A stretch of DNA of 64,000 bases from Oceanicaulis sp. MMSF_3324 (GTDB taxonomy: Bacteria > Pseudomonadota > Alphaproteobacteria > Caulobacterales > Maricaulaceae), in NCBI RefSeq assembly GCF_030733545.1, contig NZ_JASHIU010000008.1, positions 62,001-126,000 on the forward strand, written 5' to 3'. Below are positions 50,496 to 56,138 of this stretch, piece by piece. Both the position numbers and the translations under genes were made by a program. Each line of letters opens with the position of its first letter. Position 1 is the first letter of the stretch. The notes beneath the pieces were generated by a model. It saw only the letters and a list, made by a program, of their open reading frames with translations, did no database searches and was not told the origin of the DNA.

Positions 50496-51299
50496 TTGCC
50501 GAAAAAAACAGAACACGAACTGCGCGCCAAACGCCTTGCGGCGCGCAGCGAAATTGCCTCCAAGACGCTCTACTCAGTCATTGCTGAAACCGGGAAGGAA
50601 GAGCTGCTCAGGCCTTCCAGCTCGCTCCTCTACTCAGCCCTCACGGCGGGTCTCGCCATGGGGGCTTCTGTCTTGCTAATGGGGGCGATCGCAAAGGCGG
50701 TCGGCGACGCTTCCTGGAGCGCGCTCGCCATTGCGGTCGGCTATCCGGCCGGTTTCCTGCTGATCGCCATGGCGCGGATGCAGCTGTTCACAGAGAACAC
50801 GCTCACCGCCGTATTGCCCGTCACCAAGAACCGCCGCTGGCGTTCTGTGCGTCTATTGGGGCGCTTGTGGGCGATTGTCCTGGTGGGCAATCTGGTCGGG
50901 GCTGTCGCGATCGGCGCCGTGCTCAGTCATGTCACAGAGCCAGATCTCTATGACGCCATGGTCACGGCGTCTTCGCATATCACGCACCGTGACGCCCTGG
51001 GCAATTTCATATCCGCCTTGCCGGCCGGTTTCCTGATCGGCCTGATGGCCTGGTCATTGCCGGGCCTGCCTTATGAAAAGCTGGGTGCTGTCTTCATCGT
51101 GACTTATCTCGTAGGGGCAGGGGGCTTCCCGCATATCGTGGCCGGCACGGTCGAGACGACCGTCCTGATCGCCGCAGGGGTCTGGGGGCTGGGCGAGGGC
51201 CTGGCTTTCATTCTGCCTGTCCTGGTCGGCAACACCCTGGGCGGGGCGGCGCTGTTCGCTGGACTGGCCTATGGGCAGGTTCACGAGGAAATCGAATAA
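50496..51299 (+). CDS. Formate/nitrite transporter (FNT) family protein, YfdC-like
   Basis: Inner-membrane channel of 267 residues with six helices and the FNT signature regions (ALTAGLAMGASVLLMGAIA, FTENTLTAVLP, LPAGFLIGLMAWSLPG). The charged N-terminus (MPKKTEHELRAKRLAARSEIA) resembles YfdC rather than FocA. Small anions such as formate, nitrite or hydrosulfide are typical substrates; the actual one is unknown. The start is TTG 50496 after AAAGGG. Last gene of the EcfG operon beginning at 49317. Confidence 0.82.
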   Translation: MPKKTEHELRAKRLAARSEIASKTLYSVIAETGKEELLRPSSSLLYSALTAGLAMGASVLLMGAIAKAVGDASWSALAIAVGYPAGFLLIAMARMQLFTENTLTAVLPVTKNRRWRSVRLLGRLWAIVLVGNLVGAVAIGAVLSHVTEPDLYDAMVTASSHITHRDALGNFISALPAGFLIGLMAWSLPGLPYEKLGAVFIVTYLVGAGGFPHIVAGTVETTVLIAAGVWGLGEGLAFILPVLVGNTLGGAALFAGLAYGQVHEEIE

Positions 51300-51313
51300 A
51301 AGCGAATTTGTCA

Positions 51314-51338
51314 GGAACCTCCTGCCTGACTGTTCGTT
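51314..51338 (+). promoter_or_regulatory. EcfG promoter with no protein-coding gene behind it
   Basis: GGAAC at 51314, 16-base spacer, CGTT at 51335-51338, exact consensus. The next 390 bases on this strand hold no credible coding gene but a structured RNA candidate. Confidence 0.85.
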
Positions 51339-51344
51339 ACCTAG

Positions 51345-51460
51345 CTGTCCCGAATCCCACGGGGCGTATTACGACCAAAGCTGCGGAGGTTGACCCTCCC
51401 CCCTGACCCCTTCCGCAGCCTTTCTTGAAGCCGCTCTCGATATCGAGGGCGGCTTCATTA
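51345..51460 (+). ncRNA. Candidate EcfG-dependent small RNA (GsrN-like)
   Basis: About 115 nt predicted from the promoter at 51314. Three hairpins are visible. (1) 51349-51363: CCCG/CGGG around loop AATCCCA. (2) 51380-51419: GCTGCGGA/TCCGCAGC enclosing a 24-base loop that is almost all C, with CCCTCCCCCC and GACCCC (51394-51410), a perfect match to anti-Shine-Dalgarno CCUCC. (3) 51427-51456: a self-complementary 30-base stem, GAAGCCGC...GCGGCTTC with a palindromic top. Caulobacter GsrN is a known sigmaT-controlled sRNA with an exposed C-rich loop that pairs with mRNA; architecture and regulation match, but homology is not shown. Exact 5' and 3' ends are estimates. The rest of the gap (51461-51670) shows no supported feature. 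Confidence 0.65.
51427..51460 (+). terminator. 3' stem-loop of the candidate sRNA
   Basis: GAAGCCGC, T·G wobble and CTCGAT/ATCGAG, GCGGCTTC: 15 paired positions with hardly any loop, followed by ATTATG. The T-run after it is weak, so termination is probable rather than certain. Confidence 0.55.
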
Positions 51461-51670
51461 TGCGTGCCCGGATGGTCAGGCGGTCCGCCTTGCGCGCAGG
51501 CTCACGGTCGTGACGGACAAGTCAGCATCCGATGAGAGATGACGCCGCCCGCGCTGACGGCCAGCGGGAGAGGGCGACAGCTGTCGCTTGCCTTTATCAA
51601 GGCGTCTGGTGTTGGGGAGCCATGAAGCGGGACGTTTCTCGAGCGGATCAATGTGCTGCGAGACAGGCGC

Positions 51671-51700
51671 AAAAAAGGGGGCGCGCCGTAGCGCGCCCCC
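51671..51700 (-). terminator. Strong terminator after the PRC-barrel gene
   Basis: GGGGGCGCGC-CGTA-GCGCGCCCCC: ten-base perfect GC stem, four-base loop, six A on the plus strand (six T on the minus strand) directly after it. Confidence 0.92.
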
Positions 51701-51731
51701 AGGCTTTGGGGTTGGTCATGCCCCTCAGATT

Positions 51732-52457
51732 TTAGCGGCCGTCCAGATAGGCCCCGGTGTTGACCGGCGTATCTTCCATGACGCGCACATCCTCGGCCGT
51801 CATGTCGGAAGTGACCGTCCAGCCGCTTTCGGCGCTGTAGGCCAGATCCAGTTCATCAAAGTCGACGACGCCAACTTCGCCACCCAGGCCGAGGAAGCCG
51901 CCGTCGCGAATGATGGCGTATTCCGTGTCGCCCTCGAGCGTGAACTTCACGTCCTCGAGATGGGCGATGGTTTCGCCGGCATCATTCATGATCGCAGCGC
52001 CGGTCAGGTCACTGTAGAACAGCTCGCCGTCCTCACGCTGATCCTCGATGGACACCACGAATGGGCTATCCTGGATGGCCTCGGCGTCCTCAAGCTGCTC
52101 GTCGGTCAGCGAAGCGGTGACGACGAGTTCGCCGTCTTCATCGTGTGAGATGCTTGCAGCGACGGTTGAGACTGCGACCTCCTCGTCAAACAGTCCCAGA
52201 AAACCACCGCGGGAAATGACGAGCGCTTCGGGATCGCCTGCGTCAGTCATACGGATGTCGGTGATCGCGGACGCGCCGTCAGCATACTCCAAGTCAGCAC
52301 CCACAACGTTTGAGGCTTTGACCTTGTGAGACGCCATCTCGGCTTCGGCGCCGGTTGTCATTTCCGTGTGCATCTCAGCCTCTTGGGCTTGTGCAGTCGC
52401 CAGAGCGGCGGTGGACATCAGAGCGATCGAGGTGCTCAGCATCAGCTTATTCAACAT
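51732..52457 (-). CDS. Exported PRC-barrel protein, EcfG-controlled
   Basis: 241 residues with a signal peptide (MLNKLMLSTSIALMSTAALATAQAQ). Two PRC-barrel domains follow (about 45-105, KVKASNVVGADLEYADGASAITDIRM, SRGGFLGLFDEEVAV; and about 150-210, YSDLTGAAIMNDAGETIAHLEDVKF, IIRDGGFLGLGGEVGVVDFDEL), which look like an internal duplication with the shared GGFLGL motif. Highly acidic. The function in stress is unknown; PRC-barrels often bind metabolites or partner proteins. Preceded by an EcfG promoter, closed by a strong terminator. Confidence 0.85.
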   Translation of the reverse strand: MLNKLMLSTSIALMSTAALATAQAQEAEMHTEMTTGAEAEMASHKVKASNVVGADLEYADGASAITDIRMTDAGDPEALVISRGGFLGLFDEEVAVSTVAASISHDEDGELVVTASLTDEQLEDAEAIQDSPFVVSIEDQREDGELFYSDLTGAAIMNDAGETIAHLEDVKFTLEGDTEYAIIRDGGFLGLGGEVGVVDFDELDLAYSAESGWTVTSDMTAEDVRVMEDTPVNTGAYLDGR

Positions 52458-52504
52458 AACTTGTCTCCTTCATTGCTAGCGATCAAGTCGAACGCAATTA
52501 AGAA

Positions 52505-52529
52505 ACGTTGTTATCGAGGTGCCGTTCCA
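52505..52529 (-). promoter_or_regulatory. EcfG promoter for the 51732-52457 PRC-barrel gene
   Basis: Minus strand GGAAC, N16, CGTT, exact consensus, 48 bases before the start at 52457. Confidence 0.87.
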
Positions 52530-52658: not shown

Positions 52659-53432
52659 TTATTCGGCCGCGACGGGTTTCTTCTCGAAGAAAAACAGGGC
52701 CTGGCTGATGGTGGCCGACACCGTTTCCGGCATGAAGGGTTTGGTCACAAGGTAGGTGGGTTCCGGCTTCTCACCTGTCAGCAGACGTTCGGGATAGGCG
52801 GTGATGAAGATCACGGGCACATTCATCTCGTCCAGAATGTCCTTCACCGCATCAATGCCGGAACTGTTATCGGCCAGTTGGATATCTGCCAGCACCAGTC
52901 CGGGCGGTGATTTCTGGGCCAGCGCTACAGCTTGATCACGCGTGCGAGCAACGCCGGTGACGCTATGGCCTGCATTCTCCACAATGGCGCGCAAGTCGAG
53001 CGCGATCACCGGCTCGTCCTCGATGATCATGACCCGGGTCGCGAGGCCGGCATTGAGTTCCTGTTGAGCGGAGACCAGAAGGCTTTGGGCTTCACTGTCA
53101 TCAATCCGCAGGATGTGCGCGACATCTTCGATGGAAAAACCTTCCACCGAAGTCAGCAGCATCACCTGGCGCGCCTTGGGCGTCACATGAGAGAGCGGGC
53201 TCGATTCCTCATCAGTGGAACTGGTATCAAGATCCGGGCTCCAGCACGCATGAAAGAGCTGGAACAGGGCCACTTGGGGAGACAGGTCCTGACCTAGCTC
53301 TTCATTGCCTTCGACGGCGGCTTCAAGACATGCGCGCACATGGGCGTCGCCGCTTTGCTGGGATCCGGTCAGGATCCTGGCATATCGACGCAAGTATGGA
53401 ATGTGTGCGCGAATTGCTTGAACAAAACTCAT
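52659..53432 (-). CDS. phyR: General stress response regulator PhyR
   Basis: 257 residues from ATG 53432, with GGGGAG about eight bases upstream; a 21-codon longer frame would cover the promoter. The N-terminal sigma-like domain (about 1-125; RAHIPYLRRYARILTGS in sigma2, TPKARQVMLLTSVEGFSIEDVAHIL in sigma4) mimics EcfG. The C-terminal receiver domain (about 135-250; VMIIEDEPVIALDLR, phospho-acceptor Asp in LVLADIQLADNSSG, ITAYPERLLTG, TKPF) is phosphorylated in stress. Phospho-PhyR binds NepR and frees EcfG (partner switching). Divergent from nepR-ecfG. Confidence 0.96.
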   Translation of the reverse strand: MSFVQAIRAHIPYLRRYARILTGSQQSGDAHVRACLEAAVEGNEELGQDLSPQVALFQLFHACWSPDLDTSSTDEESSPLSHVTPKARQVMLLTSVEGFSIEDVAHILRIDDSEAQSLLVSAQQELNAGLATRVMIIEDEPVIALDLRAIVENAGHSVTGVARTRDQAVALAQKSPPGLVLADIQLADNSSGIDAVKDILDEMNVPVIFITAYPERLLTGEKPEPTYLVTKPFMPETVSATISQALFFFEKKPVAAE

Positions 53433-53467
53433 TGTGGGCTCTCCCCAAAAAACAGTGTCACCGTCCA

Positions 53468-53492
53468 AACGGGCAATATGAGAAAGGGTTCC
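53468..53492 (-). promoter_or_regulatory. EcfG promoter for phyR
   Basis: Minus strand GGAAC, N16, CGTT, exact consensus, 36 bases before the phyR start codon. Suggests positive feedback. Confidence 0.92.
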
Positions 53493-53512
53493 CAAAAAAA
53501 TGCATTTTTATC

Positions 53513-53595: not shown

Positions 53596-53814
53596 ATGGC
53601 AATGTCTGAGGGCAAGAATGGCGCGCGCAACGCGCCCGATCCGTCCATTGTGCAGCGGACGCGGAAGCAACAAGAAAATATAGGCCAAGGCTTACGGCAC
53701 ATGTTTGATTCCGTGCTGGACGAGGGCGTGCCGGACGACTTTGCCGATCTGCTGGACCGACTTGAGGAAGGCGAAGCCAAGCGCGGCGAGAATGATGGTG
53801 GCGCCCGTGAGTAA
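53596..53814 (+). CDS. nepR: Anti-sigma factor NepR
   Basis: 72-residue anti-sigma factor that sequesters EcfG and is itself captured by phospho-PhyR. Conserved helices: QQENIGQGLRHMFDSVLDEGVPDDFADLLDRLEE, the two amphipathic helices that wrap sigma2 and sigma4. Short unstructured ends. ATG 53596 or the ATG two codons later are both possible. Overlaps ecfG by eight bases. Confidence 0.92.
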   Translation: MAMSEGKNGARNAPDPSIVQRTRKQQENIGQGLRHMFDSVLDEGVPDDFADLLDRLEEGEAKRGENDGGARE

Positions 53815-54433
53815 GGTCGGATCTGAATCTGCCGGCTTATCGCCGTCCGAAATGATGTCTCAGTCCCAGTTCCGCCAGGAGCTGACCGAGGCTATCCCCC
53901 ATATGCGCGCTTTCGCGAGAAGCCTGACCGGCGAGGCCGCCAGCGCTGACGACTTGGCGCAAGACGCCATGATGAAAGCGTGGTCCGCACGCGACAAATT
54001 CAAGGCCGGGACCAATTTCCGGGCTTGGGTGCTCACGATCGTGCGCAACCAATTTTATTCCGACAAACGACGGTCATGGCGACAGGCTGAGTGGGACCAG
54101 GAGTTGGCTGAACGCACGCTTCCCGCCGTTGACAACCAGGAACAGATTGTCGCGCTCGATGAACTGCGTCGCGGGCTGGCGGAGTTGCCGGAAGATCAGC
54201 GCGAGGCGTTGATACTGGTCGGCGCAGGTGGGTATTCCTATGAGGAAGCCGCCGAAATCTGTGAATGCGCAATAGGCACGGTGAAAAGCCGGGTCTCACG
54301 CGCTCGTCTGGCGTTGGAGGGCATCATGAAAGCTGGCCCTGCCGCCAAAGCCAATTCCGACGGTGTGGCCGCTTCTGATGCGGTGGACACCCTCCTCGAT
54401 CAGGTCAGCGACCTAGCTGAGCAGGCGCGTTAG
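53807..54433 (+). CDS. ecfG: ECF sigma factor EcfG (general stress sigma)
   Basis: ECF15-type sigma factor. About 208 residues from GTG 53807; ATG 53792 or ATG 53852 are alternative starts, the sigma core beginning at [13 protein letters not shown]. Region 2 is [50 protein letters not shown]; region 4 is [44 protein letters not shown], which reads GGAAC. A C-terminal tail of about 30 residues follows. It directs the eleven boxes described in this window (inference from consensus). Confidence 0.94.
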
Positions 54434-54434
54434 C

Positions 54435-56138
54435 ATGCCGTTCAGACCGGGCGGTGAAATGACCGGGCGATTGCGTTTCGTACTCGCTCTGGTCCTGGCT
54501 GTGGCGCTCTTTCCACTCTTGTTAGTCGCGATGGCGCAGACATGGGGTGAAGCGCGCGAGGAACAACGGGTCCAGCGTGATCGAATGGTCATTCTGGGCG
54601 CTCTTGCAGCATCAGAACTCAATAAATCGATTTCTCGGGCACAAGGCGTGATCGACGCCGTGTCCACTCGCGGGTTCGCCTTCATGAGCGCCCCCGGCGG
54701 CTGCGCCAACGCCATGGCCCAGATTTCCGAGGGCGACGATGTTCTGACCAATATTGCTCTCACGAATCCGAGTGGAGAGATCATCTGTTCGGCGCTTGAT
54801 GATGCGCGCAGTCTCGACATGAGCACGGAGGGCTGGTTCCAAACTCTTGAAACCGGCTCTCAACGGTCAGTGTCTGGCGTCATGCTCGGTCAGGTGTCGC
54901 GGCGTCCTATTCTGGTGGTCGCATCCCGCCTTGGAAATCAGGATGAATTCAGGGGCGCGGCTGCCGCAGCAATCGATGTGCTGCAGGCGTCACGTATCCT
55001 GATCGACAATGCGACGGCCGAAGGCAGCAAGGTCTTGCTCGTAACGCCTGACCAGGCGCGTGAGGTCGATACGGCCCGCATTCTCAAGCCTGTCGCAATC
55101 GATTTGGAGCAAGAGCTGCTCCTGCGAGTTCTTGAGGTTGACCGACCTGAGCCCATGCAGGTGACCATTGACGGGCGGGAAACGCCTGCTGTCCTGGCCC
55201 CGCTTGTGGACCATGAACTGGCGCTGCTTCTGGTATCGCCATCTCCGACTGCGCAATGGGGGCTGATCTCGGTCGCCGCGACCTTTCTTGTGCCCTTGTT
55301 GATGTACGCCTTGGCGCTGGCCAGTGTCTGGCTGGCTGTGGACCACTATGTTCTACGCTGGCTGGGCTATTTGCGCCGCATTGCTGCTGTATACGGTAGC
55401 GGCCGGCTGGATGTTGTCCCCGTACGCGCCCGGAATGCGCCTCGCGAGATCCGGGGGCTGGCTGAAACCATGGGTGAAATGGCCGCGTCTCTGGAGGAAC
55501 AACACAGTGAGCTTGAGTCCTCCCTTGAACAGCGTGGCGCGTTGCTGCGTGAAATCCACCACCGGGTGAAGAACAATCTGCAAATCATCGTCAGCTTGCT
55601 GAATCTGCAAGCTGGACGCATGGCGGATGGCGAGGGCCGCATGGCTCTCATGGAAGCGCGTCGGCGCATCAACGCGCTCTCACTGGTACACCGCAGCCTG
55701 TACGAAGCTGACGACCTTAGAGCGGTTCACATGCCAGGCTTTCTTACCGAGCTATGCATGAACCTGCAGCAGGTGAGTGATGATGGAGCGCGTTCCATCA
55801 GCGTGCAGGCGGAATGCGATGAGGTGTCCTTCGAGCCTGATGCGGCCGTGCCTATCGCGCTGTTTGTCACCGAAGCCGTCACGAACGCCTACAAACATGC
55901 CTTCAAGGATCAAACCAGCGGACGTGTTCTGGTGTCCCTGAAAGCCAGCTCGGCGGAGGACCTGACCTTGCGGGTTAGCGATAATGGCAGCGGCATGACC
56001 GAGACTGCCTCGCACGGTACGGGGTCGTCATTGATGGAAGCCTTCGCCATGCAGGTGGACGGCGAAACCTGGTCGGAGTCCAACGCTGAAGGCGGTACGG
56101 ATTTCGTTCTTCAGGTGCGTCAAGAAAAGACGGATTGA
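54435..56138 (+). CDS. PhyK-like HisKA_2 sensor histidine kinase
   Basis: Membrane histidine kinase of 567 residues that probably phosphorylates PhyR. Helix 1 (about 12-34, [21 protein letters not shown]), a periplasmic sensor domain of about 235 residues (Cys residues in GGCANAM and EIICSAL), helix 2 (about 277-305), a HAMP-like linker, then the HisKA_2/HWE kinase: [25 protein letters not shown] (phospho-His in EIHHRVKN), [12 protein letters not shown] (N box) and VSDNGSGM (G box). It starts one base after the ecfG stop. Position beside phyR-nepR-ecfG supports the PhyK role. Confidence 0.9.

Follow-up and report, generated by a model that had tools for sequence, protein, structure and literature searches.

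A predicted EcfG-controlled small RNA with an exposed C-rich loop at the general stress response locus of Oceanicaulis, most likely a counterpart of GsrN with an altered design

The general stress response (GSR) locus of Oceanicaulis sp. MMSF_3324 appears to encode a small RNA that is most likely a counterpart of GsrN with an altered design. The putative RNA of ~115 bases lies on the + strand at 51345..51459 of the window, i.e., the whole stretch of 64,000 nucleotides that was analysed, from a genome of 2.98 Mb in 24 contigs. Its promoter, locus, fold, loop exposure and conservation are supported by the sequence and by prediction, whereas its transcription, its action in trans, its targets, the sign of its regulation and its use of Hfq, the gene for which (hfq) is present in the same genome, are inferred. 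We consider it quite probable that the element is a GsrN-like trans-acting stress RNA, the loop of which would act on G-rich mRNA and alter its translation or stability. PMC5869019, which predicts GsrN-like RNAs in other orders (text to figure 9 for Rhizobiaceae and their relatives), gave reason to expect a GsrN counterpart here. New are the altered design, which is outside the reach of the Rfam model RF01529, and a controlled count of the recurrence of such RNAs at GSR loci; among the matches listed, the titles and opening lines of abstracts in the open-access literature mention no such RNA for Oceanicaulis or Sphingomonadales. If our interpretation is true, post-transcriptional control by the alphaproteobacterial GSR extends past the Rfam model of GsrN, and a second, differently built C-loop RNA occurs at the same type of locus. 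Comparison of both RNAs would reveal the essential part of GsrN, and also whether a single U within the C-run suffices to redirect such an RNA to ribosome-binding sites.

The original prediction of an exact EcfG promoter with no gene behind it is borne out. The promoter (51314..51338, + strand) consists of GGAAC at 51314-51318, a spacer of 16 bases and CGTT at 51335-51338, and thus the RNA shares with GsrN, as a match in sequence only, a promoter of the EcfG type. Position 51314 is intergenic, the nearest following gene with Pfam support is convergent, and the + strand open reading frames behind the promoter begin at 51532 and 51588, past the terminator. Directly upstream is a gene of the formate/nitrite transporter family (50496..51299, +; PF01226), and the element starts 14 bases past its stop codon. 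The convergent gene, ~270 bases downstream, encodes a PRC-barrel protein (51732..52457, −; PF05239) and has an EcfG promoter pattern of its own (52504-52528, −). Next come the genes of PhyR (52659..53495 as listed, −; PF22029, PF22233 and PF00072), the anti-sigma factor NepR (53596..53814, +; PF18557), the sigma factor EcfG (53795..54433, +, with the listed frame starting at 53705; PF04542 and PF08281) and an HWE/HisKA_2 sensor kinase (54435..56138, +; PF07568 and PF07536). The real start of PhyR is probably more internal, because an EcfG promoter pattern is found at 53468-53492. The RNA element is therefore only 1.2-4.7 kb away from PhyR, NepR, EcfG and the HWE kinase, the master switch of the GSR, and such nearness to phyR-nepR-ecfG is a usual, not a universal, property of GsrN.

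The window contains 11 EcfG promoter patterns with spacers of 15-17 bases versus 1.45 expected, and none of 100 shuffled windows reached at least 11. All 11 are located between 46249 and 58422, around PhyR-NepR-EcfG, and the genes behind several of them encode a Dps-like ferritin, the PRC-barrel protein, PhyR and NepR/EcfG. This region is a dense cluster of EcfG promoters, a compact stress island. Across the genome as a whole the pattern (spacers 15-18) showed no excess, with 68 occurrences versus 130 for the reversed control.

We placed the 5' end of the RNA ~7 bases past the −10 box, and the 3' end was derived from the terminator. The minimum-energy fold of 51345-51460 has a predicted energy of −53.3 kcal/mol versus −32.8 ± 3.4 kcal/mol for shuffled sequences (z = −5.96), and none of 200 shuffles folded equally well. 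Among 14 same-genus relatives, two (G007 and G008) carry the RNA, likewise between the transporter gene and the PRC gene; slightly offset stretches of these copies gave z = −6.48 and −3.91. Much of the architecture originally proposed recurs in the predicted fold, including a 5' hairpin of 7 bp (51346..51366, +; 51346-51352 with 51360-51366) with CCC in its loop AAUCCCA, and a long 3' stem. The CCC has a predicted unpaired probability of 1.0 in all three Oceanicaulis copies. The 3' stem (51426..51459, +) is a terminator-like stem of 14 bp that pairs 51426-51439 with 51444-51457. Its U-tract is poor in the window copy (TTATG), whereas the relatives have better ones (TTTGTT and TTTTGTTT). For the second hairpin (51380..51419, +), the predicted stem of 51380-51387 with 51412-51419 was recovered, but the open loop of 24 bases was not: five inner pairs (51388-51392 with 51404-51408) partly close it to a loop of 11 bases, ACCCUCCCCCC. 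This leaves the C-rich stretch CCCUCCCCCC (51394..51403, +), in which the 8-mer CCTCCCCC is invariant among the three Oceanicaulis copies and is predicted to be unpaired with mean probabilities of 0.97 in the window, 0.94 in G007 and 0.89 in G008. As in GsrN, a run of six C (51398-51403) is predicted to be unpaired; its position in the RNA is roughly central, and the run has five C in the G007 and G008 copies.

GsrN is described in PMC5869019 as a SigmaT-dependent RNA of ~100 bases, a 5' loop of which contains six tandem C. According to passages of the same paper, this C6 loop pairs with G-rich RNA, and pairing with the first seven bases of the katG mRNA (listed as GUCGGGG) activates KatG. GsrN is also processed into a stable 5' isoform, and Hfq stabilises its full-length form. 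The Oceanicaulis RNA resembles GsrN in its EcfG/SigmaT promoter, its length of about 100-115 bases, its exposed C-run and its 3' terminator hairpin. The design differs, however. In the GsrN-type copies a long outer stem and an inner hairpin flank an internal loop that holds the C-run, whereas in the window RNA the run is in an apical loop and an extra 5' hairpin with a CCC loop stands in front. Furthermore, the run in the window RNA is CCUCCCCC(C), with one U within, as opposed to C6-C8 in the GsrN-type copies. PMC5869019 predicts the GsrN-like RNAs of Rhizobiaceae from features that the window RNA has too: an EcfG site, a place close to the GSR locus and a C-rich 5' loop that is exposed. These RNAs belong to another order and are likened to the window RNA by description alone.

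Promoter, locus, loop and conservation thus all speak for the proposal of a GsrN counterpart under control of a stress sigma factor, but membership of the family in sequence is not supported. BLASTn homologues of GsrN are reported from Caulobacteraceae only, typically near GSR genes with C. crescentus as an exception (PMC5869019). In our stretches from the order and in named records, 24 loci, including Caulobacter, Brevundimonas and Phenylobacterium, carry a core CGACG-C(n)-GACTTGA; the strict promoter pattern accompanies it in 13. We equate RF01529 ('CC3552') with GsrN (CCNA_R0081), because one of these core-bearing Caulobacter RNAs matches RF01529 with 88 bits and because two target stretches of GsrN printed in PMC5869019, UCAAGUCGGGGC and GUCGGGG, are complementary to this core. 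RF01529 matched 45 of the 249 genomes of the order, all in one family (f3) that we take to be Caulobacteraceae from these matches, and only Caulobacter vibrioides among 14 controls. The same model gave no match up to E 10 in 51290-51480 and none at E 0.01, with stricter filters, in the Oceanicaulis genome; the window RNA is therefore no member of RF01529. At gathering scores, Rfam recognised one tRNA in the whole window and nothing at the RNA element, while a permissive scan of the RNA stretch gave 13 weak matches, all far below their gathering scores (E 0.18 at best). CcsR1 (RF02791, 'Conserved CCUCCUCCC motif stress-induced RNA 1') shares a C/U motif of the anti-Shine-Dalgarno type, and membership of this family was rejected at 12.8 bits versus a gathering score of 65.3 (E 0.87).

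A model of our own, built from 15 GsrN-type sequences (R2), matched the second hairpin and terminator of the window RNA as its only match in the 64-kb window, with 13.8 bits (E 2.2 over 598 kb; E 0.00071 when the search was limited to 191 bases). It matched an RNA in another genus (locus L058, genome G023) with 20.1 bits (E 0.094), and chance places elsewhere scored up to 26 bits, above both. R2 did not match the G007 and G008 RNAs, and in the whole Oceanicaulis genome, at E up to 5, its sole match was elsewhere (17.3 bits), so that genome-wide the match to the window RNA is not significant. Conversely, a model built from the three Oceanicaulis copies (R1) was weak on Caulobacter GsrN (L180, 18.5 bits, E 0.19) and on L058 (18.2 bits, E 0.22). 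The alignment with GsrN that had been suggested as a check did not help: in a pairwise comparison with a Caulobacter GsrN-type RNA, 14 of 1000 shuffles scored as high as the window RNA (40/500 for G007, 7/500 for G008 and 51/500 for G023). Because of these shuffle scores, and because the alignment places loop off loop, we do not claim homology with GsrN.

We propose that the RNA would work in trans, like Caulobacter GsrN. Its unpaired CCUCCCCC loop would pair with G-rich mRNA leaders or ribosome sites, and this pairing would change the translation or stability of the mRNA. The 5' hairpin and the CCC in its loop might stabilise the 5' end or offer a second contact, and the 3' stem would terminate transcription. 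A variant of this GsrN-like action, with other targets and the opposite sign (GsrN activates katG), would be an anti-Shine-Dalgarno repressor that, during stress, blocks translation of membrane and uptake proteins by pairing mainly with their GGGAGG or GGGGGAGG ribosome sites. We regard this variant as a tentative possibility. The sequence GGGGGAGG, the complement of the loop 8-mer CCTCCCCC, stands directly before the ATG of orthologues of two proteins in all three species (one of 151 aa that on inspection looks membrane-like and one of 213-216 aa, both unmatched in Pfam) and of two more in two of the three (a TonB-dependent receptor and a TRAP DctP-type binding protein). These comparisons covered 30 of 33 matches. 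Predicted duplexes of the loop stretch with the four sites of the window species range from −20.8 to −32.1 kcal/mol. However, such ribosome sites may be conserved without any small RNA. Masking of GGAGG sites by a new regulator, as suggested originally, is possible, but the full GGGGGAGG occurs in only 13 of 894 GGAGG-to-ATG patterns in the Oceanicaulis genome (12 of 1065 and 8 of 819 in the two relatives), and a target prediction from the loop finds no over-representation of complementary ribosome sites. The 8-mer pattern did exceed its reversed control in the three genomes (13 to 3, 12 to 6 and 8 to 3). Yet there is no extra excess, since the plain GGAGG pattern exceeds its reversed control too (894 to 149, 1065 to 171 and 819 to 132). 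In view of these low fractions, we treat the four conserved sites as candidate targets and not as evidence.

Each Oceanicaulis genome has two genes of the katG type. The likely ribosome site of one of them is AGGAGG in the window species and GGGAGG in G007 and G008, and its complementarity to the loop is weak, with 5 bases in the window genome and 6 in the two relatives. A contact at this ribosome site would suggest repression, the opposite of the GsrN effect.

A wider interpretation, which we find rather doubtful, is that the GSR loci of many Alphaproteobacteria contain a slot for a quickly remodelled C-loop RNA, and that in Oceanicaulis the change from C6 to CCUCCCCC turned an activator that binds leaders into a masker of ribosome sites during stress. 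The EcfG promoter and the C-rich loop would persist in such a slot, while stems and loop number would be rebuilt in each lineage, as GsrN in Caulobacteraceae, the two-hairpin form in Oceanicaulis and a two-C-loop terminator in Sphingomonadales.

That the element yields an RNA of its own, and not just the end of a transporter transcript, is indicated by its conservation. The promoter boxes, loop and stems are retained in G007 and G008. When the intergenic regions of the three genomes are aligned, the RNA has pairwise identities of 71, 57 and 69%, against 34, 35 and 27% for the stretch beyond it (51470-51660). The promoter spacer diverged to 38, 31 and 44%, whereas GGAAC and CGTT are unchanged in all three copies. 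The 5' hairpin core and the C-loop are conserved; best conserved is the terminator stem, with 12 counted stem pairs retained in all three copies. This pattern, boxes and RNA kept while spacer and flank diverged, indicates selection on both promoter and RNA. Covariation among the three copies was not beyond chance (2 of 30 pairs doubly changed; 131 of 500 shuffles reach 2). If the stem merely ended transcription of the transporter operon and the promoter match were fortuitous, its position 14 bases past the transporter stop codon and its superior conservation would find a ready explanation. Invariant boxes across a diverged spacer and a conserved loop and 5' hairpin core would then be unexpected, as would a C-loop RNA at the same position in another genus, and we consider this alternative improbable. 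In that other genus, the order at L058 (MscS, Dps, [RNA], PRC, PhyR, NepR, EcfG, HWE kinase) equals that of the window, and its RNA has a 5' hairpin, followed by one with loop GCCCCCCATGTCCCCC and then by a terminator, whereas the stretch has no match to the transporter. It is even harder to believe that the promoter yields an extended transcript, antisense to the PRC-barrel gene that converges on it, since ~270 bases of distance and a weak U-tract in the window copy are set against the strong conserved stem at 51426-51457, the divergence after it and a second strong inverted repeat at about 51670-51702.

Within the family, the covariance search was successful in part. Only G000, G007 and G008 among 137 genomes matched R1 at E 8.4e-21 or better; a limit of E 0.1 gave 22 matching genomes, and those other than the three strong ones (E 0.0017 or worse) were not used. 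A DNA search of 61 genomes found matches in the Oceanicaulis genome itself and in G007, and missed the G008 copy. The RNA is thus present at R1 strength in 3 of 15 same-genus genomes. Five of the 15 have a PhyR match at E 1e-40, of which G011 and G014 lack such an RNA in the stretch fetched around PhyR. The other ten (G001-G006, G009, G010, G012 and G013) have no PhyR match at this threshold, and hence a PhyR-type stress response may be absent or very divergent across much of the genus.

Counterparts were counted at PhyR loci with a strict rule (an EcfG promoter, then a C-run, then a terminator). The family sample comprised 40 of 58 PhyR places (36 genomes, four twice) and the order sample 40 PhyR stretches, 20 from f3 and 20 from families f2, f4 and f5. 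Nine family loci matched (L049, L050, L051, L058, L060, L063, L065, L084 and L088), three in Oceanicaulis and six in four other genera. The same nine were kept by eye from a first listing of 14 rows, in which a second L050 row, L057, L059 and two of L061 were left out; the terminator of L088 is doubtful. Ten order loci matched, nine of 20 in f3, all GsrN-type, and one of 20 elsewhere (L138), which was not counted as GsrN-type. The rule found nothing in 31 of the 40 family loci, and most loci outside f3 lack the element when judged by it. Nevertheless, the association of promoter, C-run and terminator is far from chance, because 30 permuted promoters gave on average 0.07 matches in the family and 0.1 in the order, and at most 1. 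The promoter pattern alone occurred 211 and 251 times, respectively, versus permuted means of 17 and 19. The C-loop RNAs of L060, L063, L065, L084 and L088, near phyR in other genera of the same family, have a long stem that closes the C-rich region, without a separate 5' hairpin.

A strongly conserved RNA was also observed near phyR in 20 of 33 loci taken as Sphingomonadales (e.g., L156:7383-7485, −). A looser pattern raises this to 23, including S. melonis AS2.3 and the variants L152, L161 and L192, and the RNA was not found in the remaining 10, half of them Sphingobium. Its predicted fold is a hairpin with a loop around CCCCCCC followed by a terminator-like hairpin with a loop such as ACCCCTCCCCCCCC. 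The promoter pattern is directly upstream in 15 of the 20, while the other five and the three variants have GGAAC with a changed −10 box. Covariation is strong, with double changes that keep the pair in 11 of 26 pairs. Like the window RNA, it has an EcfG promoter, a position near phyR and a C-rich loop, one of its two being CCCTCCCC-like; it differs in sequence and in having its second C-loop inside the terminator-like hairpin. In one copy nothing reached an Rfam gathering score (RF02833, Scr3202, came closest with 32.4 versus 52 bits, E 0.0031), and the available text of the EcfG transcriptome paper on Sphingomonas melonis Fr1 (PMC6599016) does not contain the terms sRNA, non-coding or intergenic.

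A scan of 80 loci gave 15 positives, of which the Oceanicaulis, Caulobacteraceae and Sphingomonas rows were used and those of Methylobacterium, Microvirga, Rhizobium, Parvibaculum and Sphingobium left out. In Methylobacterium and Microvirga (L215, L227 and L228), an EcfG promoter pattern near phyR is followed by a similar hairpin, which contains TGGTCCTCCCCGCATTCCCC, and by a strong stem that resembles a terminator.
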